From Glutamicibacter soli (GTDB lineage: Bacteria; Actinomycetota; Actinomycetes; Actinomycetales; Micrococcaceae): DNA of 64,000 nt. Position numbers and translations under genes: made by a program. The notes under the pieces are model-generated. The model saw nothing but the letters and a program-made list of their open reading frames with translations. It searched no databases and was not told where the DNA came from. Of the stretch, positions 4,532 through 58,286 are shown one piece after another (the first letter of the stretch is position 1; the number at the start of each line of letters is the position of its first letter). The stretch lies in the NCBI RefSeq assembly GCF_003309065.1, contig NZ_POAF01000006.1:62001-126000 (forward strand). The letters are read 5' to 3'.

Positions 4532-6223
4532 CTACAGGCCGAAGCGGTCCAGCTCCGGCAGTTCGGCGCGCACGAGCCGCCGGGCCTCGGAGGCCGAGTC
4601 GGCGTCCAGGGCGAGCGCTGCCAGACGTCGGGCGGCGGGCAGGTCCACCGTGCGCAGCACCGCCGCGACCGGGGACAGCGCCCGCTTGTTCATGGACAGT
4701 GTGTTCACGCCCAGGCCGACCAGCACCACGGCCAGCGCCGGGTCGGCCGCGGCCTCGCCGCACACGCCCACCGGCTTGCCTCCGGCGCTCCGGGCACCCT
4801 CGGAGGTGGCCTTGATCAGGTGCAGCACCGCCGGCTGCCACGGGTCGTTCAGCTCGGCCATGGCGCCCAGCTGGCGGTCGGCGGCCATCGTGTACTGGGT
4901 CAGGTCGTTGGTTCCCAGCGAGACGAAGTCGCAGCGGGACAGGATGCCGCCGGCCAGCACCGCCGCGGAGGGAACCTCGATCATGGCGCCGCCGGTGGGC
5001 AGGCCCGCCTCGGCGACCATGGCCGCGAACGCGCCGGCCTCGGCCGGGGTGGAGATCATCGGGGCCATGGTCCAGACCTCGGCCTGGTGCTCCCCGGCCG
5101 CCTGCGCGATGGCCGCCAGCTGGCGGGACAGCACGCCGGGGCTGGCCGCGTCAGTGCGGTAGCCGCGCACACCCAGGGCGGGGTTCGGCTCGGTGGTGTC
5201 GGTCAGGAAGGGCAGCGGCTTGTCCGCGCCGGCATCCAGCGTGCGCACCACGACTTTCTTGCCGGCGAAGGCCTCGAAGACCGCGCCGTAGGCGGCCACC
5301 TGCTCCTGGTGCGTCGGCTCGGCATCGCGGCCCAGGAAGCAGAACTCGGTGCGCAGCAGTCCCACGCCCTGGGCACCGGCGGCCGCGGCCGCCTGGGCAT
5401 CAGTCCCGCTGCCCACATTGGCCAGCAGCGGAACCAGATGCCCGTCGGCCAGCATGCCGTTGCCGTCGAAGTCCGGCAGCGGTTCGCGGTTTGCGTAGGT
5501 GGCTGCCAGGTGCTCCTGCTCGGCGCCGGGGTTCGTGGTTACGGTGCCGCTGATGCCGTCGGCGAAGACCAGCATGCCGTCATCCAGCGCGGTGGTGCCG
5601 GCGGCGGCGACGATGGCGGGCAGGCCCAGCGAGCGGGCGATGATCGCGGTGTGCGACTGCGGCCCGCCGTCGGAGGTGACCAGGGCCAGCACCTTGGCCG
5701 GATCCAGGGTGGCGGTGTCGGCCGGGGCCAGATCCACCGCGGCCAGCACGAACGGCACGTCCGAGTCCGGGATGCCCGGGGCGGGCACCCCGCGCAGCTC
5801 GGCCACGATGCGGGCGCGCACGTCCAGCACGTCGCCGGCGCGTTCGGCCATGTAGCCGCCCAGCGCCGCGAGCTGGGTCGCCACCGCGTCGGCGGCTTCC
5901 CAAATGGCCGATTCGGCGCAGGTGCCGCCGGAGACCAGCTTGCTGGCGGACTTGAGCAGGGTGCGGTCGCTGGCCATCAGCGCGGTGGCCTTCAGCACGG
6001 CCTGCGCGTCTCCGGTGGCGGTGGCCGCGCGGGCCTTGAGGGCTGCGGCGACGGACTGCGTGGCCGCGGCCAGGCGCTCGATTTCAGCGTCGGCGGTGGA
6101 GCCTTCAGGCAGCGGGGCGCCGTCGGCCGGGGCGGTGATCGGATCGGGCATGCGCAGCACCGGCCCGATCACGCGCCCGGCGCTGACGCCGACGCCGTGG
6201 TAGGAAACCTGCTGCGTGCTCAT
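4532..6223 (-). CDS. ptsI: PTS enzyme I (phosphoenolpyruvate-protein phosphotransferase)
   Basis: 563 residues. It takes phosphate from PEP and passes it to HPr. The N-terminal HPr-binding and phosphohistidine domain carries GGPQSHTAIIAR with the active His at about 191. The C-terminal PEP-binding barrel shows LLRTEF, VRTLDAGADKPL and the catalytic Cys region GVCGEAA. The start codon overlaps the stop of fruA by 4 bases (ATGA), implying translational coupling. Having the general PTS proteins in the same operon as the fructose permease suggests that fructose is the main or only PTS sugar feeding this regulation. Confidence 0.95.
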   Translation of the reverse strand: MSTQQVSYHGVGVSAGRVIGPVLRMPDPITAPADGAPLPEGSTADAEIERLAAATQSVAAALKARAATATGDAQAVLKATALMASDRTLLKSASKLVSGGTCAESAIWEAADAVATQLAALGGYMAERAGDVLDVRARIVAELRGVPAPGIPDSDVPFVLAAVDLAPADTATLDPAKVLALVTSDGGPQSHTAIIARSLGLPAIVAAAGTTALDDGMLVFADGISGTVTTNPGAEQEHLAATYANREPLPDFDGNGMLADGHLVPLLANVGSGTDAQAAAAAGAQGVGLLRTEFCFLGRDAEPTHQEQVAAYGAVFEAFAGKKVVVRTLDAGADKPLPFLTDTTEPNPALGVRGYRTDAASPGVLSRQLAAIAQAAGEHQAEVWTMAPMISTPAEAGAFAAMVAEAGLPTGGAMIEVPSAAVLAGGILSRCDFVSLGTNDLTQYTMAADRQLGAMAELNDPWQPAVLHLIKATSEGARSAGGKPVGVCGEAAADPALAVVLVGLGVNTLSMNKRALSPVAAVLRTVDLPAARRLAALALDADSASEARRLVRAELPELDRFGL

Positions 6224-14948: not shown

Positions 14949-16315
14949 TAGTTCGCTCCCTTCGAAGCGGCGGGAACGGCGCAGGATGCTCCGTCGTAGG
15001 CCGGTGCCGCGAAGTCGGACTCCAGCGTGCCTTCCTGCGAGGCGGCCAGCGCCTGGTCGAGGTCCCAGAGGATGTCCTCGACGTCCTCCAGGCCGACCGA
15101 CAGGCGGATCAGGTCTTCCGGAACGCCGGCGGCGACCAGCTGTTCGGCGCTGAGCTGCTGGTGGGTGGTTGAGGCGGGGTGCAGCACCAGGGTGCGGGCG
15201 TCGCCGATGTTCGCCAGGTGGCTTGCCAGCTGCAGCGCGTCGATGAACTTGGCGCCGGCCTCGCGGCCGCCCTTGACACCGAAGCTGAAGACCGAGCCAA
15301 CGCCCATCGGCAGCAGCTTGGCTGCCTGCTCGTGCTGCGGGTGGGATTCCAGCCCCGCGTAGTTCACGTAGGTGACTCGCTCGTCGGCTTCCAGCCAGGC
15401 GGCGACCTGCTTGGCGTTGGAAAGGTGGTTGTCCATGCGCTGGGGCAGGGTCTCCAGGCCCTGCAGCAGCTGGAAGGCCGACTGCGCCGGCAGCGCCGGG
15501 CCGAAGTCGCGCAGCTGCTCGCTGCGCAGCTTGGTCAGGAAACCGTATTCGCCGAAGTTGGCCCACCAGGAGACGTTGCCGTAGCTGGCCACCGGCTCGG
15601 TCATGGTCGGGAACTTGCCGTTGCCCCAGTTGAAGGTGCCTGACTCGATGACCACGCCACCCAGGGTCGTGCCGTGGCCGCCGATGAACTTGGTGGCCGA
15701 GTGGATCACGATGTCCGCGCCGTGCTCGATCGGGCGCAGGATGTACGGCGGAGTCAGCGTGGAGTCGACCACCAGCGGGATGTCGTGGCGATGCGCCACC
15801 TCGGCCAGTCCGGCCAGGTCCGCGATGTCTCCGGAAGGGTTGGCCACGACCTCGGTGTAGACGGCCTTGGTGTTCTCGCCGATCGCCGCCTCGAAATCGG
15901 CCGGGTCGTTGGAGTCGACGAAGGTGGTGTCGATGCCGAAGCGGCGCAGCGAGACGTCCAGCTGCGTAATGGTGCCGCCGTAGAGCTTGGCCGAGGCCAC
16001 GATGTGGTCGCCGGCCTGGGCCAGCGCGGCGAAGGTGACGAACTCCGCGGCCATGCCGGAGCCGGTGGCTACCGCGCCGAGGCCGCCTTCCAGCGAGGCC
16101 ATGCGTTCCTCGAACGCGGCCACGGTCGGGTTGCCGATGCGCGAATAGATGTTCCCGTACTTCTGCAGGGCGAACAGGTTCGCGGCATCGTCGGCGTCCT
16201 TGAAGACGAACGAGGTGCTCTGGTAGATCGGCACCGCGCGGGCGCCGTGCTCGGCATCGGGGGTGCCTCCGGCGTGCAGCGCGCGGGTGCGGAATCCAAA
16301 CTTGTGGTCTGCCAT
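14948..16315 (-). CDS. metY: O-acetylhomoserine sulfhydrylase
   Basis: 455 residues, Cys/Met metabolism PLP-dependent family. It makes homocysteine from O-acetylhomoserine and sulfide, or methionine directly from methanethiol. The PLP lysine is Lys209 in HSATKFIGGHGT. The substrate-cofactor Tyr motif YSRIGNPTV and GMAAEF are present. Length and the N-terminal FGFRTRALHAGG fit metY rather than the shorter metB/metZ. AAGGAG lies upstream of the ATG at 16315 with a longish 12-nt spacing. A SAM-I riboswitch occupies 16430-16520 in its leader, consistent with shut-off when SAM is plentiful. Confidence 0.93.
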   Translation of the reverse strand: MADHKFGFRTRALHAGGTPDAEHGARAVPIYQSTSFVFKDADDAANLFALQKYGNIYSRIGNPTVAAFEERMASLEGGLGAVATGSGMAAEFVTFAALAQAGDHIVASAKLYGGTITQLDVSLRRFGIDTTFVDSNDPADFEAAIGENTKAVYTEVVANPSGDIADLAGLAEVAHRHDIPLVVDSTLTPPYILRPIEHGADIVIHSATKFIGGHGTTLGGVVIESGTFNWGNGKFPTMTEPVASYGNVSWWANFGEYGFLTKLRSEQLRDFGPALPAQSAFQLLQGLETLPQRMDNHLSNAKQVAAWLEADERVTYVNYAGLESHPQHEQAAKLLPMGVGSVFSFGVKGGREAGAKFIDALQLASHLANIGDARTLVLHPASTTHQQLSAEQLVAAGVPEDLIRLSVGLEDVEDILWDLDQALAASQEGTLESDFAAPAYDGASCAVPAASKGAN

Positions 16316-16429
16316 GGTGGCTTATGACTCCTTGTCGATACGTTCTTGGCCTCCGTGCCGAACACGGAAGCCATCGAGGCAGGAATCCCGGTCAATGTCG
16401 CTTGAACGCCGGGTAGGCGGAAAGCAGCT

Positions 16430-16520
16430 CCATCGTTTCTGGCGGTAGCACCGTATCCACCGGCTGTGGCAGGTTGCTGCGGCGTCATCGAACCAGTTCT
16501 CTCGGCCGCTCGGGATGGTT
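16430..16520 (-). promoter_or_regulatory. SAM-I (S-box) riboswitch of metY
   Basis: Minus strand. P1 closes CCATC with GATGG. Core elements follow in order: GAGCGGCCGAGAGA, CTGG, GACGCCGCAGCAACC and GGTGCTACCGCCAG. These are the S-box conserved blocks in their actinobacterial form. The 114-nt leader that follows contains a short hairpin (GGC-TCCGTG/CACGGA-GCC) at about 16350-16374 but no U-tract, so control is more likely translational or by another mechanism. Confidence 0.88.
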
Positions 16521-16634
16521 GTAACAATCTTCGCAACATGACCGAAAATGACCCAACTATGAGTCGTAACGTTGCGTATTGCTTCCTTCGCCACAGATTC
16601 TTCGATATCTTTGCGCTGCGCCTATGCTCGAGTC

Positions 16635-26893: not shown

Positions 26894-27916
26894 TTACTCT
26901 CCGGAAATGTTCTTGGCGTCGGCCTTGGTGGCGAACTGATCATCCACCAGGGTGGCCAGCGCTTCGTCAACGGTTTCCTGCTTGGATACGTCGCCGCTGG
27001 CAACCAAGGTAGGGGCGATGTTGCCGAGCACCTTGGTGAAGGATTCGCCGGGAACGGTGTCCACGTCCAGGTTCGAGCGTTCGTTGATCACCGTCTGGGC
27101 GACTTCGGACTCCAGTCCTGCGACCTCGGCCAGAATGTCCGCGGTTTCGTCCGGATTCGCAACGGCCCATTCGCGGGCCTTCTCGTACGAGTCGACCACC
27201 AGCTGGGCCAGCTCCGGGCTTTCCTCGATGAAGTCCGCGCGGGCATTCAGTGCGCCGTAGGTGTTGTAGTCCAGGTTGCGGTGGAACAGCTTGGCGCCGT
27301 CCTGTTCGGCGGCGGCCATGATCGGGTCGAGACCGGACCATGCGTCGACCGAGCCGTTGGCCAACGCGGTGCGCCCATCGGCGTGCTGGACGTTCTGCAG
27401 GGTGATGTCCTTTTCGCTCAGACCGGCCTCCTCAAGGGTCTGCAGCAGGAAGAAGTACGGATCAGTGCCCTTGGTGGCGGCGACCGACTTGCCCTTCAGG
27501 TCTGCCGGGGTGGTGATCTTCGAGTCCTTGTTGACCACCAGCGCCGCCCATTCAGGCTGCGAGTAGAGCGAAATGGTCTTGATCGGCGAGCCGTTGGAGC
27601 GGGCCAGCAGTGCGGCGGAGCCAGCGGTGGAACCGACCTGCACAGCGTCGGCGCGCAGCGCTTCATTTGCCTTGTTCGATCCGGCGGATTGGATCCACTC
27701 GACGGTGACACCCTGTTCCTTGGCTGCCGCATCCAGCCAACCCTTTTCCTTGAGCACCAGGCTCAGCGGGTTGTAGGTGGCGTAGTCGATGGACAGGGTT
27801 TTGCCGTCGCCGGCTGCCGAGGCGTTCTCTCCGGCACAGCCGGAGAGGGCCACGGCACCGACGGCCAGGGCGGTGATGGACAGTGCGGTACGACGGGTGA
27901 CACGGTTTGCGAGCAT
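26894..27916 (-). CDS. ABC substrate-binding lipoprotein, SsuA/TauA type
   Basis: 340 residues. The N-terminus MLANRVTRRTALS leads to lipobox LSGC (Cys27); the twin Arg may allow Tat export. The mature protein has the NMT1/SsuA-like fold: TLSIDYATYNPLSLVLKEKGWLDAAAKEQGVTVEWIQS, then a hinge strand and KGKSVAATKGTDPYFFLLQTLEEAGL, typical of aliphatic sulfonate and taurine binders. AAGGA precedes the ATG by 7 nt. An open frame extends 77 codons upstream but lacks a start context. It is second gene of the SAM-riboswitch operon. Ligand unknown. Confidence 0.9.
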   Translation of the reverse strand: MLANRVTRRTALSITALAVGAVALSGCAGENASAAGDGKTLSIDYATYNPLSLVLKEKGWLDAAAKEQGVTVEWIQSAGSNKANEALRADAVQVGSTAGSAALLARSNGSPIKTISLYSQPEWAALVVNKDSKITTPADLKGKSVAATKGTDPYFFLLQTLEEAGLSEKDITLQNVQHADGRTALANGSVDAWSGLDPIMAAAEQDGAKLFHRNLDYNTYGALNARADFIEESPELAQLVVDSYEKAREWAVANPDETADILAEVAGLESEVAQTVINERSNLDVDTVPGESFTKVLGNIAPTLVASGDVSKQETVDEALATLVDDQFATKADAKNISGE

Positions 27917-28004
27917 GGAAATTCCTTGATTTGTGCGTGCGAGTGCAGCGGCTGCGTGGATGCAGCCGTAGAAGAAAGTCGAGATGCCGGTGGCGAAGCC
28001 GGTA

Positions 28005-28826
28005 TTAGTGGTTTGCGGTGTCGACGCCCAGCAGTCCCAGCAGGTGGGCGCGGTTGGTGACGAACAGTGCGTCGCTGTGGCTGCGCGGGTGCGCCGCGGA
28101 CAGCCGGAGGTCCTCGATGACCGTCGCTGATTGCTGGCCATTGGCACGCCCCAGGACGATCACCCGATCTGCCAGGGTCAGCGCCTCGTCGACGTCGTGG
28201 GTCACCATCAGGACGGTGGTCGGGAACGACGCATGGATGGACAGGAGCAGGTCCTGCATTTTCAGGCGGGTCAGTGCATCCAGTGCGCCGAATGGTTCAT
28301 CGAGCAGCAGCACGCCGGGGCGGCGGGCCAGTGCTCGGGCGAGCGATACGCGCTGTGCCATGCCGCCGGAAATTTCGCGTGGCCGCAGATCGGCCGCGTG
28401 GGTCAACCCGGTCAGCTCCAGCAGCTGGTTGATGAGTTCAATGCCGGCCGGCTTGCTGGTCCCCGGAGCCAGTCCGAGTGCGATGTTCTCGCGCACCGAA
28501 CGCCATGGCAGCAGCCGTGGCTCCTGGAAGGCCACCGCGCACAGCTCGTTGATGTCGTTGACTTCCCGGGTGCCGGTGAAGACTGCGCCGCCCGTGGGGT
28601 GGTCCAAGCCGGACACCGAGCGAAGCAGCGTCGACTTGCCGCAGCCGCTGGCTCCGAGGATCGCCACAACCTGTCCTGCTTCGATGTGGAGGTTGACGTC
28701 TGCGAGGACGGTGCGCTGCTCCTTCTTGGTGGTGAAGGTGCGCGAGACATTGTGGAAGTCCACGGACAGCGCGCTGGATGCGCTGGTTGCAACCTCGGTC
28801 TGAGGCAGGGCAAAGGCAGTAGCCAT
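28005..28826 (-). CDS. ABC ATPase, SsuB/TauB type
   Basis: 273 residues. Walker A GASGCGKS is at 58-65, the Q-loop is AFQEPRLLPWRSV, the signature is EISGGMAQRVSLARALA, Walker B is VLLLDEPFGALDA, and the switch His is in MVTHDVDEAL. This is the SsuB/TauB/NrtD subgroup. The ATG at 28826 was chosen because GGAG lies 6 nt upstream; longer frames would start inside the riboswitch. That GGAG (28836-28833) overlaps the 3' strand of riboswitch helix P1, so SAM binding should hide the ribosome site directly. Confidence 0.92.
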   Translation of the reverse strand: MATAFALPQTEVATSASSALSVDFHNVSRTFTTKKEQRTVLADVNLHIEAGQVVAILGASGCGKSTLLRSVSGLDHPTGGAVFTGTREVNDINELCAVAFQEPRLLPWRSVRENIALGLAPGTSKPAGIELINQLLELTGLTHAADLRPREISGGMAQRVSLARALARRPGVLLLDEPFGALDALTRLKMQDLLLSIHASFPTTVLMVTHDVDEALTLADRVIVLGRANGQQSATVIEDLRLSAAHPRSHSDALFVTNRAHLLGLLGVDTANH

Positions 28827-28833
28827 GATCATC

Positions 28834-28932
28834 TCCATCGGTCCTGGCGGTAGCACCGGCCGTGAATTCCGGGAATTCAACGGTGGTTGCTGCGGCGTCG
28901 TAGAGCCAGATCTCTCGGCCGCTCGGGATGGT
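28834..28932 (-). promoter_or_regulatory. SAM-I riboswitch of the SsuBAC-like importer operon
   Basis: Minus strand. P1 ACCATC...GATGGA; blocks GAGCGGCCGAGAGA, CTGGCTC, GACGCCGCAGCAACC and GGTGCTACCGCCAGGACC are present in order. The P3 arm is lengthened by a GAATTC-containing palindrome (GTTGAATTCCCGGAATTCACG). The 3' P1 strand (28840-28835) overlaps the Shine-Dalgarno GGAG, predicting translational control. Confidence 0.92.
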
Positions 28933-28941
28933 TACGCATCC

Positions 28942-29193: not shown

Positions 29194-29202
29194 TGATTAC
29201 GA

Positions 29203-29289
29203 CCCATCCAGAGCGGCTGAGAGATCTGGCTCCACGACGCCGCAGCAACCACCCATGACAGGGACGGTGCTACCGCCAGGATCGATGGA
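29203..29289 (+). promoter_or_regulatory. SAM-I riboswitch of the first monooxygenase pair
   Basis: P1 CCATC (29204-29208) with GATGG (29284-29288); GAGCGGCTGAGAGA, CTGGCTC, GACGCCGCAGCAACC and GGTGCTACCGCCAGG follow in order. The Shine-Dalgarno CGAGGA (29296-29301) lies just 7 nt after P1, so expression could be controlled at ribosome access. It faces away from the riboswitch at 28834-28932, forming a divergent pair. Confidence 0.93.
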
Positions 29290-29307
29290 AAGAATCGAGG
29301 ACTTTTT

Positions 29308-30651
29308 ATGTCTTTTGGCGCACCCCAAAACGATTTTGAGGTGGACTTTAACACGCTGAGCACCCCGGGCGCCGGCAATGCGCTGGAGCTTGACGAGTTC
29401 ACCGAAGACCGTCCGACCCGCCAGCTGCTCAAGGTGACTCCGGGGCCGGGGGCCGACGAAGACTACGAGCGCCTTGCAGCGATTTTCCGTCCGGTGTTCG
29501 CCCAGATCGCCGCCGGCGCCAAGGAGCGCGACCGCAACCGCATCCTGCCCTTCGAGCAGGTGGGCCTGCTGAACCGCGACCGCTTCGGGGCGCTGCGCCT
29601 GCCGGTCGCCGACGGCGGCCACGGGGCCCGGCTCAGCGACGTCTTCCGCCTGCTCATCGAGCTTTCCGAGGCCGATTCCCATATCGGCCAGCTCTGGCGC
29701 GCGCACATTGCCTTTGTCGAGGACGCGCTGCGCCTGCAGGACGAGCAGCTGAAGGCCAAGTGGTTCGCCCGCATCGCGGCCGGGCAGATCGTTGGCAACG
29801 CCTACACCGAAAGCGGCGGCAACGCGCTGGGCACGCTGAACACCAAGGCCAGCCAGGTCGACGGCCGCTGGGTGGTCAACGGCGAGAAGTACTACTGCAC
29901 CGGCACCATCTTCGCGGACTGGACCACCGTCGCGGTGGCCCATCCGGAGCGCCCGGGACGCCAGATCGCCGTGGTCTCTACCCAGCACAGCGGCGTGAAG
30001 ATCCTGGACGACTGGGACGGCTTCGGCCAGGGGCTGACCGGCACCGGAACCACCGAGTTCCACCAGGTGCCGGTGGACAGCTTCATGCCGGAGGATCCCA
30101 ACGACCCCGAGGCCTCGATCTTCCAGCTGGTGCTCATGGCGGTGCAGGCAGGCATCGGCCGCGCGGCGCTGAACGACATGCGCAGCTCGGTGCAGGCGCG
30201 CACCCGCAGCTTCACCACCGGCACCGGCGTCCCGGTGCACCGCGAACCGCAGGTGCTGCAGCTGGTGGGGGAGGTCTCCGCGGAGGTCTTCGCCGCGGAC
30301 TCGGTGGTCATCGGCGCGGTGCTGGAGGTCGAAGCCGCGCTGCAGGACGCGCAGCTGAACGCGGAGGAGCGCTTCGCGGTCTGCGAGCTGGCCGCCAACC
30401 GGGCGCAGACCATCGTGCAGCCGCTAGTCATCAGCGCCACCAGCAAGCTCTTCGACGGACTGGGCGCCTCGTCCACCCGCAGCAGCTGCAACATGGACCG
30501 GCACTGGCGCAACGCACGCACCATCGCCACCCACAACCCAGCGATCTACAAGGCGCGCATCGTGGGGGACTACGAGATCAACGGGGTCCAACCCCAGCGC
30601 CTCTCGGTCACCGGCGACCTCGCCGCACCCACCGGGCACCACGCCAGCTAG
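29308..30651 (+). CDS. DszC/SfnC-like flavin-dependent monooxygenase (acyl-CoA dehydrogenase fold)
   Basis: 447 residues. It has the acyl-CoA dehydrogenase fold used by reduced-flavin monooxygenases such as DszC (sulfide/sulfoxide oxidation) and SfnC. Visible blocks are LPFEQVGLLNRDRFGALRLPVADGG, NAYTESGGNALGTLNTKAS, GEKYYCTGTIFADWTTVAVA, LDDWDGFGQGLTGTGTTEF and the late HWRNARTIATHNPAIYKARIVGDYEING. It lacks the catalytic Glu context of true acyl-CoA dehydrogenases. It needs reduced flavin from a reductase not found in the window. It is first gene after the SAM riboswitch. A close paralog sits at 44355-45599. Confidence 0.88.
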   Translation: MSFGAPQNDFEVDFNTLSTPGAGNALELDEFTEDRPTRQLLKVTPGPGADEDYERLAAIFRPVFAQIAAGAKERDRNRILPFEQVGLLNRDRFGALRLPVADGGHGARLSDVFRLLIELSEADSHIGQLWRAHIAFVEDALRLQDEQLKAKWFARIAAGQIVGNAYTESGGNALGTLNTKASQVDGRWVVNGEKYYCTGTIFADWTTVAVAHPERPGRQIAVVSTQHSGVKILDDWDGFGQGLTGTGTTEFHQVPVDSFMPEDPNDPEASIFQLVLMAVQAGIGRAALNDMRSSVQARTRSFTTGTGVPVHREPQVLQLVGEVSAEVFAADSVVIGAVLEVEAALQDAQLNAEERFAVCELAANRAQTIVQPLVISATSKLFDGLGASSTRSSCNMDRHWRNARTIATHNPAIYKARIVGDYEINGVQPQRLSVTGDLAAPTGHHAS

Positions 30652-38588: not shown

Positions 38589-38943
38589 TTTCCGGTTTCA
38601 ATCGAGGGTTGTTCCATTCTGCAGGAGACGGTGATTTCCGTGTTCACCGGACGGCGGACGCATCGGCTTGGGAAGGGCGGGCCGTGGTCGCTGATATCGC
38701 GATTTTGTCCAACCAGCTCCTTCATCCATGGAGCCGCAACAGATCTTGCTTCCTGGTGCCGAGTCAAGAATTTGTCAGAGCTGTCGACAAGAATCGTCAC
38801 AAGACGCTTTGTGACGTGCAAAATGACTCGTTTCAAGAGCGTTGATAACCGTTGCTGGGTTTCATGACGTTTTACTTACGTCACGCTTGGTCATATTCAA
38901 CTCCGTGTTCGACACTGAAATTGTTCAAGAAATTGGACACCAC
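38589..38943. other. Promoter-rich intergenic stretch with two palindromes
   Basis: No supported gene. It holds CGTCACAA (38795-38802) with TTGTGACG (38809-38816), a perfect 8-bp inverted repeat over 22 bp. It also holds TGACGT (38865-38870) with ACGTCA (38878-38883). Both lie upstream of the SAM riboswitch at 38944 and may be operators of the 39-47 kb operon. Short frames here lack coding bias. Confidence 0.5.
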
Positions 38944-39031
38944 ACCATCCAGAGCGACTGAGAGACCTGGCTCGTTGACGTCGCAGCAACCACCCGACAT
39001 CGGGAGCGGTGCTAAGGCCAGGACCGATGGA
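38944..39031 (+). promoter_or_regulatory. SAM-I riboswitch of the 39-47 kb operon
   Basis: P1 CCATC (38945-38949) with GATGG (39026-39030); GAGCGACTGAGAGA, CTGGCTC, GACGTCGCAGCAACC and GGTGCTAAGGCCAGG follow in order. A long leader of 124 nt follows. AGGACCG (39020-39026) can also pair with CGGTCCT (39050-39056), an alternative helix exclusive with P1, so a transcriptional or refolding switch is possible. Confidence 0.92.
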
Positions 39032-39154
39032 GATTGCTAGATTTCGCAACGGTCCTTCAAGGGGAGATCTCTGCCTTCCCTCGAACTCGCTACAAGCGGA
39101 TCGTTGAACATCAGGCGTAATCCTCGGGTCCAACACCGAGAGGAACACACGAAG

Positions 39155-40789
39155 ATGCGTACTTCGCACCTGAGCTTGAAAGCAGCGGCCCTTGTCACCG
39201 TCCTAGGCCTGACGCTGACTGCCTGCGGCGGAAACTCGACAACTGCCGCCCCAGCGGAAGGCGCCCCGACCGCCTCCGGCGAACCGGTTGAAGGCGGCAC
39301 CTTCACCTTCGCCGAGGTCACCCCGATCAACAACTGGCAGACCCAGGCAGCGCGCTTCTACGAGAAGGCCAACGTGCTGAACTCGGTCCTTGACCGCCTG
39401 ACCTACTTCGACGTTGAATCCGGCAAGCTGGTGGGCTGGATTGCCAAGGATTTCAAGGCGAACAAGGAGCAGACGGAATTCACCTTCACCATTCGCGACG
39501 GAGTGACTTTTTCGGATGGATCCGCGCTTGATGCCGAAGCGGTTAAGCTGAATCTTGACGCGCTGGGTCTGGGCATCAAGGATGCACAGATCGCTCCAAA
39601 CGTGGACTTCGGCGCCTACAAGTCGGCCGAGGTCGTGGGGGAGAACCAGGTGAAGGTGACGCTGAAGCGTCCCGACGCCAACTTCCTGCGCGCTACTTCT
39701 TCGGTCGCCGCAGGCCTGGTCTCCCCGAAGACCTTGAAGCTGGACAATGCAGGCCAGTCAGCCATCGCCAAGATCGTCGGTTCCGGCCCGTTTGTCTTCG
39801 AATCGGAAAAGCCGGACGAAGAAGTGGTGTTCACCAGCCGCGATGACTACGCCTGGGCCCCGGAAACCGCCCCGAACCAGGGCGACGCATACCTTGACTC
39901 CCTCGTGGTCAAGTACCTGCCTGAAGTCGCAAGCCGCGCCGGCGCCGCCCAGTCGGGCCAGGTCGACCTGGTCCGAGGTCTGCAGCCGGTGGACGAGCAG
40001 GTACTGGCAGCCAACGGCGGCCAGGTCTTCGCCGCGCAGGGAGTGGACCTGACCACGAACCAGGCAGCAGTGCGCATCGGCTCCGGCAAGCTGGCGGACG
40101 CCAAGGTCCGCCAGGCGCTGCAGGTCGGAATCGACCGCCAAGCCATCAAGGACACCGTGCTGTCCGACAGCTACGTCGTGGCGGGATCGATCTTGAACCA
40201 CAAGGCCCCGGGTTTCGTCGACCTGTCCTCTGAAATCGCCTACAACCCGGAGAAATCAAAGCAGCTCCTGGACGAAGCAGGCTGGAAGGTCGGCGCCGAC
40301 GGCATCCGTGAGAAGGACGGCGAAAAGCTGGAAATCACGGTGGCCACCTCGAACAACTCGGTTGTCATCAAGCCGGCCTTCGAATTGATCGAGCAGCAGT
40401 GGCGCGACCTTGGCGTGAAGCTGGTCAACCGCGCGGCCGACAACACCTTCCTGGTCAACGCACTGGTCGACGACAAGGTCGAATTCTTCGGCACCCGCCA
40501 GTTCGCCCTCGGCGGCCTCGGCCCGGTGTACGCGCCGGCCAACAATACCCAGACCCTGAACTCCGACGAGGAACTGAACAAGCTCTTCGCCAAGGAACAG
40601 GCGGCAACCAGCGAAGAAGAGCATCTGAAGCTGGTCGAGGAAGAACAGCGTGCACTGGTGCTGGACAAGGCCCTGACGCTCGTACTGTGGGACGAAGTCC
40701 AGGTTTACGGCGCGAACAAGTCAGCCCACGTCGAGTTCACCTCCGGTACCGCCCCGATCTTCCAGGGCGCTTGGAAGAGCGAAGGCTAG
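39155..40789 (+). CDS. ABC substrate-binding lipoprotein, peptide/nickel/opine class
   Basis: 544 residues. Signal peptide with lipobox LTAC (Cys24). The mature protein is of the SBP_bac_5 family: LDRLTYFDVESGKLVGWIAKDFKANKEQTEFTFTIRDGVTFSDGSALDAEAVKLNLD is the diagnostic block, later VRQALQVGIDRQAI. The usual ligands of this class are peptides, nickel or opines, but SAM control and the co-transcribed monooxygenases suggest an organosulfur molecule. The start at 39155 follows GAGAGGAAC; a frame from 39104 would add charged residues before the signal. First gene of a six-gene operon. Confidence 0.9.
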   Translation: MRTSHLSLKAAALVTVLGLTLTACGGNSTTAAPAEGAPTASGEPVEGGTFTFAEVTPINNWQTQAARFYEKANVLNSVLDRLTYFDVESGKLVGWIAKDFKANKEQTEFTFTIRDGVTFSDGSALDAEAVKLNLDALGLGIKDAQIAPNVDFGAYKSAEVVGENQVKVTLKRPDANFLRATSSVAAGLVSPKTLKLDNAGQSAIAKIVGSGPFVFESEKPDEEVVFTSRDDYAWAPETAPNQGDAYLDSLVVKYLPEVASRAGAAQSGQVDLVRGLQPVDEQVLAANGGQVFAAQGVDLTTNQAAVRIGSGKLADAKVRQALQVGIDRQAIKDTVLSDSYVVAGSILNHKAPGFVDLSSEIAYNPEKSKQLLDEAGWKVGADGIREKDGEKLEITVATSNNSVVIKPAFELIEQQWRDLGVKLVNRAADNTFLVNALVDDKVEFFGTRQFALGGLGPVYAPANNTQTLNSDEELNKLFAKEQAATSEEEHLKLVEEEQRALVLDKALTLVLWDEVQVYGANKSAHVEFTSGTAPIFQGAWKSEG

Positions 40790-53874: not shown

Positions 53875-54480
53875 ATGAAGAAAATGCTGCCTCTGCTCGG
53901 AGCTGTAATTCTTGCGCTCACGTCCTGCACAACTCCGGTGTCCCAGCTCGGCCCGCTAGATCGCGAATCGCCCAGGCAACAGTCAAACACCCTCCAATTC
54001 CAGCAACCCGTCGAGGAATCGTCGCCTGAGGAGATCGCCCACCGCCAAGAAGTTGCACTGCACTACCCGCCGCTGATGTATCTGGCGATGGTCGGAATAT
54101 CCTCAGACCCTACCGCTATGGACGGCATAGGATTCTGGCAGGGCGAAATCGAGCAGCGCGGCTACCACGGGTTGGTTGCATGGGCTGCCCAACGCTTTCA
54201 ATACCAACAGGGCGGAACCCTTGCGCCTGAAGAGTTATCTTTGGAAACGGATGGCTTGCCGGGCCCGTATCTGATCAAGTACACCTGTTCAGGCTCGGGC
54301 CGGACCGACGTTCGAATCAAGGACGGGCCAAAGATGCTGCGGCAAAAAATTGTCCAGTGCTCGACAGATCCGAATGTCGTGGAATTCGAACTTGACGAGA
54401 AAAATATCGAGAATCTGGTCATCGAGCTGATCCCGGAGCTCTCGGCTCCGGCGGGTTTTGAAGTCCAGGTCATCCAGTAG
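53875..54480 (+). CDS. Lipoprotein of unknown function, second of the pair
   Basis: 201 residues from ATG 53875: MKKMLPLLGAVILALTSC (Cys18) then TTPVSQLGPLDRES. ATGs at 53857 and 53860 are alternatives that overlap the previous gene. The C-terminal half has the same plan as its neighbour: LPGPYLIKYTCSGSGRTDVRIKD...VVEFELDEKNIENLVIELIPE, i.e. a Cys-containing strand followed by charged beta strands. The two proteins probably arose by duplication and then diverged strongly. Both mature parts contain two or more Cys, allowing disulfides. Function unknown. Confidence 0.75.
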   Translation: MKKMLPLLGAVILALTSCTTPVSQLGPLDRESPRQQSNTLQFQQPVEESSPEEIAHRQEVALHYPPLMYLAMVGISSDPTAMDGIGFWQGEIEQRGYHGLVAWAAQRFQYQQGGTLAPEELSLETDGLPGPYLIKYTCSGSGRTDVRIKDGPKMLRQKIVQCSTDPNVVEFELDEKNIENLVIELIPELSAPAGFEVQVIQ

Positions 54481-54545
54481 CTCCGGAAACACCCGGCGAA
54501 GACACGTGTTCGGCCGTCCCGGACGGCTTGTGGTACTAATGGGAC

Positions 54546-54630
54546 GTAGTGACACGGGGTGCCGCCATGCGGCTGAGATAAAACCCGTCGAACCTGATCC
54601 AGTTAGCACTGGCGAAGGGAATGTCCTGGA
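54546..54630 (+). promoter_or_regulatory. TPP (thi-box) riboswitch
   Basis: All conserved thi-box blocks are present in order: ACACGGGGTGCC, GGCTGAGATAAAACCCG, GAACCTGATCCAGTTAGCACTGGCGAAGGGAA (given here only as successive short blocks: GAACCTGATCC, AGTTAGCACTGGCG, AAGGGAA). The ATG of the next gene follows about 70 nt later, with AAGGAG at 54683-54688. A TACTAAT -10-like box is at about 54534. The sensor controls a dehydrogenase-monooxygenase pair, not known thiamine genes. Confidence 0.95.
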
Positions 54631-54699
54631 TACCTCGATGCCACGCATCTACGCCGGGGTCCCGTTCGCCTTGACACATCTTCAAGGAGTTCGAGCACC

Positions 54700-55509
54700 A
54701 TGAACGCACACGCAGCAACCGACACCGCAGCTTCTTCCACCACCGCACTGCCGCTCAAGGAACAACTGGTGCTGGTCACCGGCGGCGCCCGCGGGCTGGG
54801 CGCGGCCATCAGCGCCGCTTTTCTGGACGCCGGGGCGAAGGTCGTCGTCAACTACCGCAGCTCGTCGCAGGCGGCCGAGGAACTTGCCGCCGCATTCCCC
54901 GGACAGGCGCTGGCATTGCAGGCCGACGTGCGCGACGCCGCCGGGCTGAAGGACCTGGCCGCCGCCGCGGCCGAGCACTTCGGCCGCCCGATCACCACCT
55001 TGGTCAACAACGCGCTGGTGGATTTCTCCTTCAACGCAGATGCCCGTTCCAAGGCAGACGAGCTGTCCGCCGAAGAGCTCACGGCCCAGTTCGCCGGTTC
55101 CGTGCTCGCACCTGTCGCCGCGATCCAGGCAGTGCTGCCGAGCATGCGCCAGGCGGGCTTCGGACGCATCGTCAACATCGGCACCAACCTGTTCCAGCAC
55201 CCAGTGGTCCCGTACCACGACTACACCGCGACCAAGGCGGCGCTGCTCTCGCTGACCCGCACCTTCGCGGACGACCTGGGCCCGGAAGGCATCAACGTCA
55301 ACATGGTTTCCGGAGGCCTGCTGCGCACCACGGATGCCTCGGCCGCCACTCCTGAAGAGGTCTTCGACCTGATCGCCTCCGGCACCCCGTTGCGCCGGGT
55401 GACCTCGCCGGCCGAGCTCGCCGACGCGGTGCTGTTCTTCGCCTCGCCGCTCTCGCGCGGGGTGACCGGACAGAACCTGATCGTCGACGGCGGCCTGGTC
55501 AAGGGATGA
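54700..55509 (+). CDS. Short-chain dehydrogenase/reductase
   Basis: 269 residues, classical SDR. The NAD(P) motif is TGGARGLGAAIS (about 27-38), VNYRSSSQ suggests NADP preference, LVNNALVDF holds the NNAx motif, and the catalytic Tyr-x3-Lys is in PYHDYTATKAALL. The closing block is GVTGQNLIVDGG. It resembles 3-oxoacyl-ACP reductases. It is translated after the TPP riboswitch and is coupled to the monooxygenase by an ATGA overlap. Substrate unknown; thiamine-related or organosulfur substrates are both plausible. Confidence 0.9.
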   Translation: MNAHAATDTAASSTTALPLKEQLVLVTGGARGLGAAISAAFLDAGAKVVVNYRSSSQAAEELAAAFPGQALALQADVRDAAGLKDLAAAAAEHFGRPITTLVNNALVDFSFNADARSKADELSAEELTAQFAGSVLAPVAAIQAVLPSMRQAGFGRIVNIGTNLFQHPVVPYHDYTATKAALLSLTRTFADDLGPEGINVNMVSGGLLRTTDASAATPEEVFDLIASGTPLRRVTSPAELADAVLFFASPLSRGVTGQNLIVDGGLVKG

Positions 55510-56858
55510 GCGCATCGAGGAAGCAGGCCCGGTTCAACCTGTTCATCTACGGCGCGGGGCACCACCAGGCGGCCTGGCGGGCGCCGGATTCCCCGGCCGA
55601 GCGGCTGGGCGAGACCGCGTACTACGTCGAATTGGCGCAGCTGGCCGAACGCGGCCTGCTGGACGCGGTGTTCCTGGCCGACGGCCAAGCCGTCTCCCCG
55701 GAGGCCGCGGCGGCAGGTCCTACCTGGTTCTTCGAACCGTTTACGCTGCTGTCCGCGCTGAGCCAGAAGACCAGCCGGATCGGTCTGGTCTGCACGGTGT
55801 CCTCCAGCTTCTACACCCCGTTCCACGCCGCGCGCATGCTGGCCAGCCTGGACCGGCTCTCCGGCGGCCGGGCCGGCGCCAATGTGGTCACCAGTATGTG
55901 GGATACCGAGGCGCAGAACCACGGGCGCGAAACCCTGGGCGACCATGCCTACCGCTACGGCCGCGCCGACGAGTTCATCACGGTGCTGCGGGGGCTGTTC
56001 GGATCCTACCCCTCAGCGGCGGTGCGGGCCGACCGCGCAGGCGTGTTCACCGACCCGCGGCAGCTGTCGGCCATCGACCACGCGGGCGAGCACTTCGGTG
56101 TGCGCGGGCCGCTGAATATCCCCGACGGGCCGCAAGGCTCCCCGGTGCTGTTCCAGGCAGGGGCCTCCGCCCAGGGGCGCGAGCTCGCGGCGGCCCATGC
56201 CGAGGCGATCTACGCGGTGGCCGCCGACCGGCAGATGGCGCTGGACTACGCACAGGACGTGCGGTCCCGGGCCGCCGCGGCAGGGCGCGATCCGCAGGCC
56301 CTGGCCATCATGCCGGGGCTGGTCGCCTACGTGGGCCGCACGCTGGAGGAGGCCAAGGACAAGCAGCGCCGGCTCAACGACCTGCTGCCCGTCGAGCAGG
56401 CACTGGCCCAGCTGGCGATATTCGTGCAGCAGGACACCAGCGCCTGGGAGCTGGATGCACCGGTGCCCGAACTTCCCTCCGCCGCAGACTTCACCGGCCC
56501 GGCCGGACGCTACGCGACGATCCTGCGGTTGATCGAGATCCACCAGCCGACGGTGCGCGAGCTGCTCGGGCTGCTGGCGGCCGGGGGAGGGCACTGCACC
56601 TTGGTCGGAACGCCGGAGATGATCGCCGACGAGATCGAGCTCTGGCTGGATACCGGGGCGGCTGACGGCTTCAACCTGATGCCGCCGAGCCTGCCCGACG
56701 GCTTGGCGGATTTCGTCGAGCTGGTGATCCCCGAGCTGCAGCGCCGCGGACGCTTCCGCACCGCCTACGAGCACCGCACGCTGCGCGGCAATCTGGGCCT
56801 GCCGGCGCCGGTGGCCGGGGGACGCGCTCGCCGGCCCGCATTAGGAGCTGCGTCGTGA
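55506..56858 (+). CDS. FMN-dependent monooxygenase, NtaA/SnaA/DszA family, third copy
   Basis: 450 residues, luciferase-like barrel. Family blocks: ARFNLFIYGAGHHQAAWRAPDSP, YYVELAQLAERGLLDAVFLADGQ, TPFHAARMLASLDRLSGGRAGANVVTSMWDTEAQNHG, VLFQAGASAQGRELAAAHAEAIY and DGFNLMPPSLPDGLADFVELVIPELQRRGRF. It is closer to the DmoA/NtaA group than to bacterial luciferase. It overlaps the SDR stop by 4 bases and shares its TPP riboswitch. No flavin reductase is adjacent. The likely reaction is oxygenolytic cleavage of a C-S or C-N bond; the substrate is not known. Confidence 0.9.
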   Translation: MSASRKQARFNLFIYGAGHHQAAWRAPDSPAERLGETAYYVELAQLAERGLLDAVFLADGQAVSPEAAAAGPTWFFEPFTLLSALSQKTSRIGLVCTVSSSFYTPFHAARMLASLDRLSGGRAGANVVTSMWDTEAQNHGRETLGDHAYRYGRADEFITVLRGLFGSYPSAAVRADRAGVFTDPRQLSAIDHAGEHFGVRGPLNIPDGPQGSPVLFQAGASAQGRELAAAHAEAIYAVAADRQMALDYAQDVRSRAAAAGRDPQALAIMPGLVAYVGRTLEEAKDKQRRLNDLLPVEQALAQLAIFVQQDTSAWELDAPVPELPSAADFTGPAGRYATILRLIEIHQPTVRELLGLLAAGGGHCTLVGTPEMIADEIELWLDTGAADGFNLMPPSLPDGLADFVELVIPELQRRGRFRTAYEHRTLRGNLGLPAPVAGGRARRPALGAAS

Positions 56859-56936: not shown

Positions 56937-58124
56937 TCAGCGCATCAGCCGTCCTTCGCGCAGCGTCCAGTAGGAGGAAATGTGGCTGGAGCGCTTCGAC
57001 AGGTTCCAGCGGTCGCAGATGCGGCTGATGGCCTTGACGGTGCTTCGTTCAGCATGGGCCACGACACCCAGACCTTGGCGCGGGACCGCCAGCGTCTGGA
57101 AAGCCTCGGCCAGGACGTCGCTGCGTCCTGCCGGCACGCCGTCGCGGGAAAGCCAGCGTAAAACAATGCCCTGGGGATGTTTCACGTCAAACATTGCTCG
57201 TTCGTCGGCAATTTCAAGCAGCGCCACACCCTGCGCGTGCTCCGGCAGAGTTTCGAGGATCTTGGAGATCGCCGGTATCCCGGCTTCATCCGCGGCCAGC
57301 ACATAGTAGTCGGCGCCCAGCTGGATGGAGGTCTTGCTGCGCGCCGGGGAAATGACCAGCGCCGCACCGGGCTCTACAGTGCCTGCCCAGTGCCCGACAG
57401 TTCCGGGCTCGCCGTGGAGCACGAAGTCGATGGCCAGCTCATCGACCACCGGATCGATCCAGCGGATGGTGTAGGACTTCGAGCGCGGCACCTGCTCGCG
57501 CGGCAGCCGCTGGCGAAGCTCTCTCAGGTCGTAGGGCGGAACCAGCCCGAGGGCGGGATCCGCGGCATACACCTTGACGTATTCATCCAGTGCGCCGTTG
57601 GAGCGGTAGCCGTCGAGCTTCGGTGCGCTGGCCACGAGGCGCACCAGCTGGTCGCTGAGCTTTTGCACCCGGGTGATGGTCAGGACATGCTGGTCGATCT
57701 TGTGCCGAGGGGCTTCGACTTGGCTGACCGGCGGTGAATAGCGGGCCAACGGCTCCTCGTAGGTTTCGGAATACGGCTGCGTCTCCTGCGCGGCAGCGGG
57801 TGCTGCGTCAGACGCCGCGCCGGGAGCCGGCGGAGCGTAGTGGCTCGGCCTGAATGAGGTGCGCAGCGTCTTGTCCAGGACCTTGCGCGCCGCGGCGAGC
57901 GCCGCCGCGGCCCCGGCCCGTTCGGCGGCGGCCAGCAGTTCGTCGGTCTGCTGCTCGTTCAGCAGCGACCCCCTGGCGATGCTCTGATACAGGTGTTCCT
58001 TGGCTGTTGCCTGCCCGGCTTGGGCTCCGGCCTTCTCGGCAAGCTTGAGCACCTCAAGAGTCAGGCCCTCCTTGGCGGAGATGGACACCTGGGGGCCGTA
58101 CTTGTTGTATTTGTGCTTCGACAT
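56937..58124 (-). CDS. Siderophore-interacting protein with N-terminal extension
   Basis: 395 residues. The C-terminal 260 residues form the SIP/ViuB domain: FAD-binding motif SKSYTIRWID (the usual RxYTxR pattern), IDFVLHGEPGTVGHWAGTVEPGAALVISPARSK, and the NAD(P)-binding end DYYVLAADEAGIPAISKILETL. It reduces ferric siderophores in the cytoplasm. The first roughly 125 residues are unusual: a helical, Ala-rich segment (AKEGLTLEVLKLAEKAGAQAGQ...AERAGAAAALAAARKVL) and a Pro/Ala linker. The start at 58124 is the only good one. Read from the end, the C-terminus RLMR ends 78 bases past the neighbouring monooxygenase. Confidence 0.9.
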   Translation of the reverse strand: MSKHKYNKYGPQVSISAKEGLTLEVLKLAEKAGAQAGQATAKEHLYQSIARGSLLNEQQTDELLAAAERAGAAAALAAARKVLDKTLRTSFRPSHYAPPAPGAASDAAPAAAQETQPYSETYEEPLARYSPPVSQVEAPRHKIDQHVLTITRVQKLSDQLVRLVASAPKLDGYRSNGALDEYVKVYAADPALGLVPPYDLRELRQRLPREQVPRSKSYTIRWIDPVVDELAIDFVLHGEPGTVGHWAGTVEPGAALVISPARSKTSIQLGADYYVLAADEAGIPAISKILETLPEHAQGVALLEIADERAMFDVKHPQGIVLRWLSRDGVPAGRSDVLAEAFQTLAVPRQGLGVVAHAERSTVKAISRICDRWNLSKRSSHISSYWTLREGRLMR

Positions 58125-58286
58125 GGTGTGCCTTCCCGCGCTGTTCGGGCTACTGCTCCTAGCCTGAGTATGAGCGAATCGGACCGGCCAGGCAAGGGCG
58201 AGTCCCACTGGCAGGGGTCTCTGCCGGCAGCCGGAAAACGCCCGCTTTGCGAAGAGGAATCCGCTTCCGTCCGATATTCGATTCGG

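Follow-up and report, generated by a model that had tools for sequence, protein, structure and literature searches.

The window, by which we mean the whole analysed stretch of 64,000 nucleotides from Glutamicibacter soli, contains two overlapping genes for an SDR oxidoreductase and an FMN-dependent monooxygenase directly downstream of a TPP riboswitch. From the conservation of this arrangement we conclude that the pair almost certainly belongs to the TPP riboswitch regulon. The explanation of its function that we favour, held tentatively and with a little less than even confidence, is that the two genes form a TPP-repressed operon that salvages the thiamine pyrimidine.

Riboswitch, leader and enzymes of the window

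The TPP riboswitch aptamer (THI element, RF00059) was identified by cmscan of the whole window against Rfam at positions 54545..54638 on the forward strand. It scores 70.5 bits, compared to a gathering score of 54.3 (E 7.5e-12), and is full-length, since the match covers positions 1-105 of the 105 positions of the model. The same site, 54545..54638, was recovered when the window's own genome was searched. In the leader that leads from the aptamer to the start codon (54639..54699, forward strand), RNA folding of 54540-54705 predicts a hairpin over the Shine-Dalgarno-like AAGGAG, in which this element, located before the SDR start, is paired with an upstream arm. Such a pairing would fit translational control. 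The leader fold as a whole (54540-54705) is no more stable than that of shuffled sequences (z-score -0.57), and no promoter- or terminator-like site was called between position 54300 and the SDR start.

The first gene (54700..55509, forward strand) encodes an SDR oxidoreductase of 269 aa (PF13561), the proposed aldehyde reductase of the pair, which matches NF006393 with 401.7 bits (cut-off 292). Both the TGxxxGxG and the YxxxK motif are present, with T27, G28, G32, G34, Y175 and K179 conserved among 130 distinct SDR sequences from the loci described below; Y175 and K179 are retained in at least 97% of them. The position of the usual catalytic Ser of SDRs is occupied by T162, as judged by eye. 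The second gene (55506..56858, forward strand) encodes an NtaA/DmoA-family (LLM class) FMN-dependent monooxygenase of 450 aa, with 492 bits against TIGR03860 (NtaA/DmoA, cut-off 279.7), and its start shares four nucleotides with the SDR stop (ATGA, 55506-55509). The AF2 model of the monooxygenase has a mean pLDDT of 89.8. Its best fold matches in the PDB are NTA monooxygenase (3sdo), CmoJ/YtnJ (6ask and 1tvl), BdsA, EmoA, LadA, RcaE and DmoA, of which 3sdo, 6ask and 1tvl support a predicted luciferase-like fold. No flavin reductase gene is located inside the two-gene operon.

These results agree with the earlier note on this DNA, which had recognised a TPP riboswitch by its thi-box blocks, had proposed a covariance search with the Rfam TPP model as a check, and had described the downstream genes as a coupled pair of SDR and FMN monooxygenase. 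The covariance score is high, the coordinates it gave were correct to one base, and the pair is borne out by the two family matches above their cut-offs (NF006393, TIGR03860) together with the 4-nt overlap.

Conservation of the riboswitch with the pair

A protein scan of genome contigs yielded a first set, from which at least 80 loci were kept. Among the matches listed, 47 loci were classified as orthologous, 46 of them based on a monooxygenase identity of at least 58%, and one from Jeotgalicoccus (L048) at 47% because it is located inside the same clade; the other 33 listed loci, at 43-48% identity, were classified as paralogous. The flanks were searched with a TPP model constructed from 15 riboswitches belonging to the genus of the window. 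Among the matches listed, 42 of the 47 orthologous loci have a TPP riboswitch upstream on the strand of the pair, compared to no TPP match at E < 1e-3 in any of the 33 paralogous loci. Using Rfam's own model, TPP riboswitches above the cut-off were detected in all of the host genomes searched (36/36). Regarding the misses, no riboswitch was found at L014, L038 and L042 when these were rechecked with filters off, and at L023 (Achromobacter) the sole riboswitch, again with filters off, is that of a divergent symporter; the fifth, L008, starts at a contig edge. An adjacent SDR match is present in 43 of the 47 orthologous loci among the matches listed, being split in L057 and cut in L008, and is missing at L031, L033, L041 and L042. 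Four weak TPP matches (E 0.009-0.05) in paralogous loci lie inside the monooxygenase gene.

The monooxygenase tree comprises 87 sequences, six of the 93 given having been left out due to stops. A single clade with a support of 100/100 unites 54 rows, 49 of which have the riboswitch, and it is found in none of the 33 rows outside this clade. The clade spans Actinomycetota, Alcaligenaceae, Carnimonas and Jeotgalicoccus, the latter on a long branch and therefore of unsure placement. Since taxa are intermixed within the clade, with Alcaligenaceae next to a Micrococcaceae row and Curtobacterium next to Kocuria, the tree suggests that the pair has been horizontally transferred. The riboswitch stays with the pair over many genera and three phyla. 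Clustering of the flanks of the 47 loci revealed, besides frames overlapping the pair, mostly families common within Rhodococcus (among the matches listed). L008 and three Kocuria loci have one flank family in common.

The family of the window, Micrococcaceae as judged by the nearest relatives on the tree, was surveyed in 197 genomes. Full-length identities were split into values of at least 56% or at most 47%, which resulted in 56 carriers, including two from partial matches (G087, G147); the partial matches of G086 and G167 (54-55% over 233 residues) were left out. In 48 of 50 Micrococcaceae loci (L113-L162, some being the same places fetched twice), a riboswitch stands in front of the pair or of the operon that contains it. 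Of the other two, L127, which is the same locus as L014, has no riboswitch when rechecked with filters off, and at L148 the contig ends within the monooxygenase, so that the riboswitch position is unjudgeable. As a second family we used that of the Rhodococcoides genome G036, with 401 genomes and E up to 1e-110. Here, 75 carriers were identified at 57-63% identity (the rest at 50% or less; G465 partial), and at least eight of these genomes had also contributed loci to the first set. A riboswitch was detected in 74 of the 75 loci, in all 74 on the strand of the pair and upstream within 355 nt; L201 has none, rechecked with filters off. The SDR is adjacent in 70 of the 75 loci, and in the other five the riboswitch is located directly before the monooxygenase.

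The genes thiM, thiE or thiD share an operon with the SDR or the pair behind the riboswitch in homologous loci, which is not the case in the window. The order TPP-thiM-thiE-SDR-monooxygenase is found in Pseudarthrobacter (L015) and in Ruania (L049), in the latter together with a convergent TPP-thiD. Among further loci, L143 has TPP-SDR-thiM-thiE-thiD and a separate TPP-monooxygenase, L144 and L145 (the latter by tblastn) have TPP-SDR-monooxygenase followed by TPP-thiD-MFS-thiM-thiE, and L146 (parts of it by tblastn) and L147 have TPP-thiM-thiE-thiD-SDR-monooxygenase, with the monooxygenase in pieces in both. At L148, TPP-thiM-thiE is accompanied by genes for an NMT1-type binding protein, a permease and an ATPase, with the monooxygenase on the other strand. 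Transport-type genes also occur at L149, where TPP-SDR-monooxygenase is continued by a ykoE-type gene and, at some distance, a CbiQ-type gene, and at L166 and L167, which have a divergent TPP-ykoE-type gene, L166 in addition ATPase and CbiQ genes. In Jeotgalicoccus (L048), a TPP riboswitch with a TenI-like gene, thiG and thiF is divergent from TPP-SDR-monooxygenase; in Achromobacter (L023) and Alcaligenaceae (L030), a divergent TPP riboswitch precedes a sodium:solute symporter gene. Altogether, 15 of 77 distinct loci have other searched thiamine genes in the fetched flanks and 62 have not, numbers that reflect both flanks which were often short and the choice of L143-L148 for their nearby ThiM. 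Within the unselected first set, thiamine neighbours were found in 6 of the 47 loci among the matches listed (L015, L023, L030, L041, L048, L049), and in the second family in 1 of 75 (L197, identical to the L041 locus), from which we conclude that the stand-alone operon is the usual form. ThiC had no match in the examined flanks of pair loci.

The earlier note had suggested a comparison of gene order in related genomes and had named, as speaking against its reading, a riboswitch that precedes another gene in genomes where the pair is unrelated. The comparison instead revealed a riboswitch kept with the pair in 42/47 listed loci of the first set and 74/75 of the second family. Its proposal that the pair takes part in a new salvage or repair step of thiamine, or else makes a precursor, is supported by this retention and by the operons shared with thiM, thiE and thiD in several genomes.

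Thiamine genes of the carrier genomes

The window's own genome (G000; 3.84 Mb, 25 contigs, completeness 100) carries four TPP riboswitches, one of which is that of the pair. According to the Pfam names, the others are located before thiM, thiE and a fused thiD-tenA (L163), before genes for a ThiO-like FAD oxidoreductase, thiS, thiG and thiF (L164), and before a ykoE-type gene (L165; PF09819), which we take to encode YkoE, part of a thiamine or HMP transporter. Thus, ThiO/S/G/F, ThiM, ThiE and ThiD-TenA, and with the latter a TenA domain, are present, and judging from this gene content the strain is probably able to make the thiazole half. ThiC, the HMP synthase, had no match in this genome. 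The pyrimidine half is thus left without a recognisable synthase, in a genome that has thiazole genes.

Across Micrococcaceae, ThiG is present in 51 of 56 carriers compared to 82 of 141 other genomes (p 3e-6). ThiM is not enriched in the carriers (28/56 vs 52/141, p 0.11); all five carriers without ThiG have it. For the absence of ThiC, no association was found over all 197 Micrococcaceae genomes (37/56 carriers vs 82/141 others, p 0.34), and ThiC fragments in G100, G133, G145 and G190 were counted as absent. Among the 133 ThiG-positive genomes, ThiC is missing in 32 of 51 carriers vs 28 of 82 others (p 0.002), an effect which is no longer significant after stratification by genus (MH odds ratio 2.2, p 0.29). 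Of the 36 host genomes searched with Rfam's own model, a set which overlaps the other sets, 15 have ThiG without ThiC, 4 have neither, 16 have both and 1 has ThiC without ThiG; the ThiC-less carriers include Rhodococcus, Corynebacterium, Kocuria and Glutamicibacter. In the second family, ThiC is missing in 50 of 75 carriers vs 51 of 326 others (401 genomes, Fisher p 1e-17, kinship ignored), and 30 of these 50 carriers form one clade. All tests of an association between ThiC and the pair ignore phylogeny, and the ThiG data of the second family are limited to genomes that overlap other sets. The monooxygenase tree does not represent the species phylogeny and gives the changes no direction; mapped onto it, ThiC switches between presence and absence at least 10 times (12 by parsimony), also between tree neighbours such as G370/G401, G334/G359 and G369/G346. 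We read this as a background of repeated ThiC loss, on which the pair would not be a strict substitute for ThiC. Counted by eye, TenA domain hits are listed for all Micrococcaceae carriers except G054, G074, G077, G104 and G159, which makes 51 of 56.

The reading of the pair as a simple ThiC substitute was rejected in view of the presence of ThiC in 25/75, 19/56 and 17/36 carriers. A replacement of the thiazole branch, which was first read from the thiM-thiE context, was demoted to a rival explanation, given that 51/56 Micrococcaceae carriers keep ThiG and 28/56 are without ThiM.

Proposed pyrimidine salvage, rival explanations and significance

The evidence from gene content and context on which half of thiamine is concerned leans towards the pyrimidine. 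Enzymes of the fold of the monooxygenase (NTA monooxygenase, EmoA, CmoJ, DmoA) oxidise a CH2-N or CH2-S bond, the carbon of which leaves as an aldehyde, and the SDR with its conserved Y175 and K179 would be a natural aldehyde reductase. In the proposed scheme, the leader would open at low TPP. The FMN-dependent monooxygenase, with FMNH2 supplied by a flavin reductase encoded elsewhere, would cleave pyrimidine-CH2-X oxidatively to 4-amino-2-methylpyrimidine-5-carbaldehyde, where X may be an N or S leaving group, as in thiaminase I, sulfite or thiol adducts or other thiamine fragments. The SDR would then reduce the pyrimidine aldehyde to HMP, the substrate of ThiD, and ThiD, ThiE and the thiazole branch would complete thiamine phosphate. 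We infer all chemical steps of this scheme; it would explain why two enzymes of these types stand under a TPP switch, why thiM-thiE-thiD and importer genes occur as partners, and how ThiC is distributed in the second family.

Several observations argue against pyrimidine salvage. ThiC shows no association with the pair over the 197 Micrococcaceae genomes (p 0.34), and among ThiG carriers the genus-stratified p is 0.29; 25/75, 19/56 and 17/36 carriers have ThiC. In the second family, 30 of the 50 ThiC-less carriers belong to one clade, and the direction of the ThiC changes is not given by the tree. TenA, a known HMP salvage enzyme, is present in 51/56 Micrococcaceae carriers, including the window's genome. 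Moreover, thiamine neighbours are rare (1/75, and 6/47 among the matches listed), the pair stands beside thiazole genes in Jeotgalicoccus, and riboswitch and monooxygenase occur without an adjacent SDR in 5/75 loci. The Jeotgalicoccus arrangement, in which the pair diverges from a TenI-like gene, thiG and thiF, would rather suit a role of the pair in salvage or repair of the thiazole half, e.g. of a hydroxyethylthiazole that has been oxidised or modified and is subsequently phosphorylated by ThiM. Operon partners are most often thiM and thiE, and all 5 ThiG-less Micrococcaceae carriers have ThiM, which points in the same direction; we nevertheless regard this role as rather unlikely, because 28/56 Micrococcaceae carriers are without ThiM (enrichment p 0.11), ThiG is kept in 51/56, and the window's genome misses ThiC and not the thiazole set.

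A repair or clearance of damaged thiamine or toxic analogues, recovering usable vitamin or both halves, would be consistent with genes of both halves (thiM, thiD) in the same operons, and the weak ThiC link in Micrococcaceae makes a ThiC-independent role possible; for clearance alone, a TPP switch would not be expected, nor would it track ThiC as in the 401 genomes, and we consider this explanation unlikely. Quite improbable in our view is an oxygen-dependent, ThiC-independent route to the thiamine pyrimidine, in its boldest form one by which the pair makes HMP from a common cellular metabolite in addition to thiamine fragments, beside ThiC and the yeast THI5 enzyme; it would explain why many carriers lack ThiC and yet have the thiazole pathway. 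The riboswitch might also have captured an unrelated sulfur- or carbon-scavenging pair, its regulation being without functional meaning for thiamine. Going by PDB names, those members of the monooxygenase family that have been named act in desulfurisation or on xenobiotics, and 62/77 distinct loci are without another searched thiamine gene in the fetched flanks; the retention of the riboswitch with the pair over many genera and three phyla and the thi genes that join the operon in several genomes make such a capture very improbable.

Pyrimidine salvage by the pair would resemble the TenA/YlmB salvage of base-degraded thiamine in the recovery of HMP, there from aminopyrimidine, and in its control by a TPP riboswitch, under which tenA was placed in two Paenibacillus genomes in the consulted part of that source (PMC5627462). 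TenA is not homologous to the SDR or the LLM enzyme, as they belong to different Pfam families, and the proposed route would be oxidative and then reductive. Since TenA is already present in 51/56 Micrococcaceae carriers, the pair would use other substrates. CmoJ (earlier YtnJ), a flavin monooxygenase of Bacillus subtilis, shares family and fold with the monooxygenase at 38-39% identity and is among its best PDB matches; it belongs to sulfur salvage and performs a cysteine S-dealkylation to an aldehyde. Unlike CmoJ, the orthologues described here are located behind TPP riboswitches, usually with an SDR. NtaA, EmoA and RcaE were matched by sequence and fold, the window protein belonging to the NtaA/DmoA family. 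The NTA/EDTA monooxygenases (NtaA, EmoA) and the riboflavin lyase RcaE are catabolic enzymes of C-N cleavage, and the fold neighbours CmoJ, EmoA, NTA monooxygenase and RcaE cut C-S or C-N bonds. The 33 paralogous loci, unlike the orthologues of the window, have no TPP riboswitch (among the matches listed). With the known TPP regulon the pair shares the aptamer family, and in some genomes it joins thiM-thiE-thiD operons.

The aptamer and both enzyme families are already known. Rodionov et al. 2002 reportedly named a THI-linked reductase-like gene oarX, so that an earlier mention of the SDR is possible. Among the top-ranked results of full-text literature searches, no paper ties the pair to thiamine, and no paper was retrieved for a TPP riboswitch with nitrilotriacetate monooxygenase; the consulted parts of PMC10269752, PMC10470507 and PMC12442306 contain nothing on the pair. 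Sun et al. 2013 assigned TPP-regulated genes to biosynthesis and transport and the remainder to a Miscellaneous class, which could hold the pair; in the main text of that paper, the words "dehydrogenase" and "monooxygenase" are both absent (PMC3766115).

If pyrimidine salvage by the pair is true, an oxidative branch would be added to thiamine salvage, and one clade of NtaA/DmoA monooxygenases would obtain a function. Thiaminase I exchanges the thiazole for nucleophiles, e.g. pyridine or cysteine, and its pyrimidine product was proposed to be imported and phosphorylated directly, as stated in the consulted part of PMC5627462; an enzyme that frees HMP from thiaminase I adducts would be an alternative to this route. 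Genomes without thiC are commonly counted as thiamine auxotrophs, and strains with thiL and without thiC, thiG or thiE were classified accordingly in the consulted part of PMC11346370. A pair that regenerates HMP, if true, would change the auxotrophy predictions for ThiC-less carriers in Rhodococcus, Corynebacterium, Kocuria and Glutamicibacter.

Variation at the loci of the pair

At several of the fetched homologous loci (L176, L180, L184, L189, L197, L031, L033 and L041, with L197 being the same place as L041), the monooxygenase is located immediately 3' of the riboswitch without an adjacent SDR; L031 and L033 originate from Dietzia, and a different reductase may stand in for the SDR at these loci. 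Two TPP riboswitch matches with a spacing of about 200 nt were identified 5' of the pair at L179 in genome G430 (5615-5707 and 5909-6002, minus strand), which possibly represent a tandem arrangement. The single strain Kocuria rhizophila TA68 harbors the pair twice, at L014 and L021, and no TPP riboswitch was detectable at L014. In the window, the pair is followed 3' by a convergent gene encoding a siderophore-interacting FAD-binding protein (56940-58208, minus strand; PF04954, PF08021).

Fragmentary ThiC matches

Matches to the HMP synthase ThiC were split or fragmentary in four genomes, i.e. G133 (C2:967689-968441), G190 (C1:911724-912987), G100 (C10:163857-163994) and G145 (C78:35214-35342), reflecting either thiC decay or assembly errors. 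The pair is present in G133 and G100; G190 and G145 are outside the 56 counted Micrococcaceae pair carriers.

SAM riboswitches in the window

The scan of the whole 64-kb window revealed four SAM riboswitches (16427-16521 and 28832-28934, minus strand; 29201-29291 and 38942-39033, plus strand). The genes downstream of them encode a PLP enzyme of Cys/Met metabolism (14951-16315), an ABC ATPase with a binding protein of the NMT1 type (26897-28880), a protein resembling acyl-CoA dehydrogenases (29308-30648) and a solute-binding protein of family 5 (39104-40786), which look like functions in sulfur scavenging.
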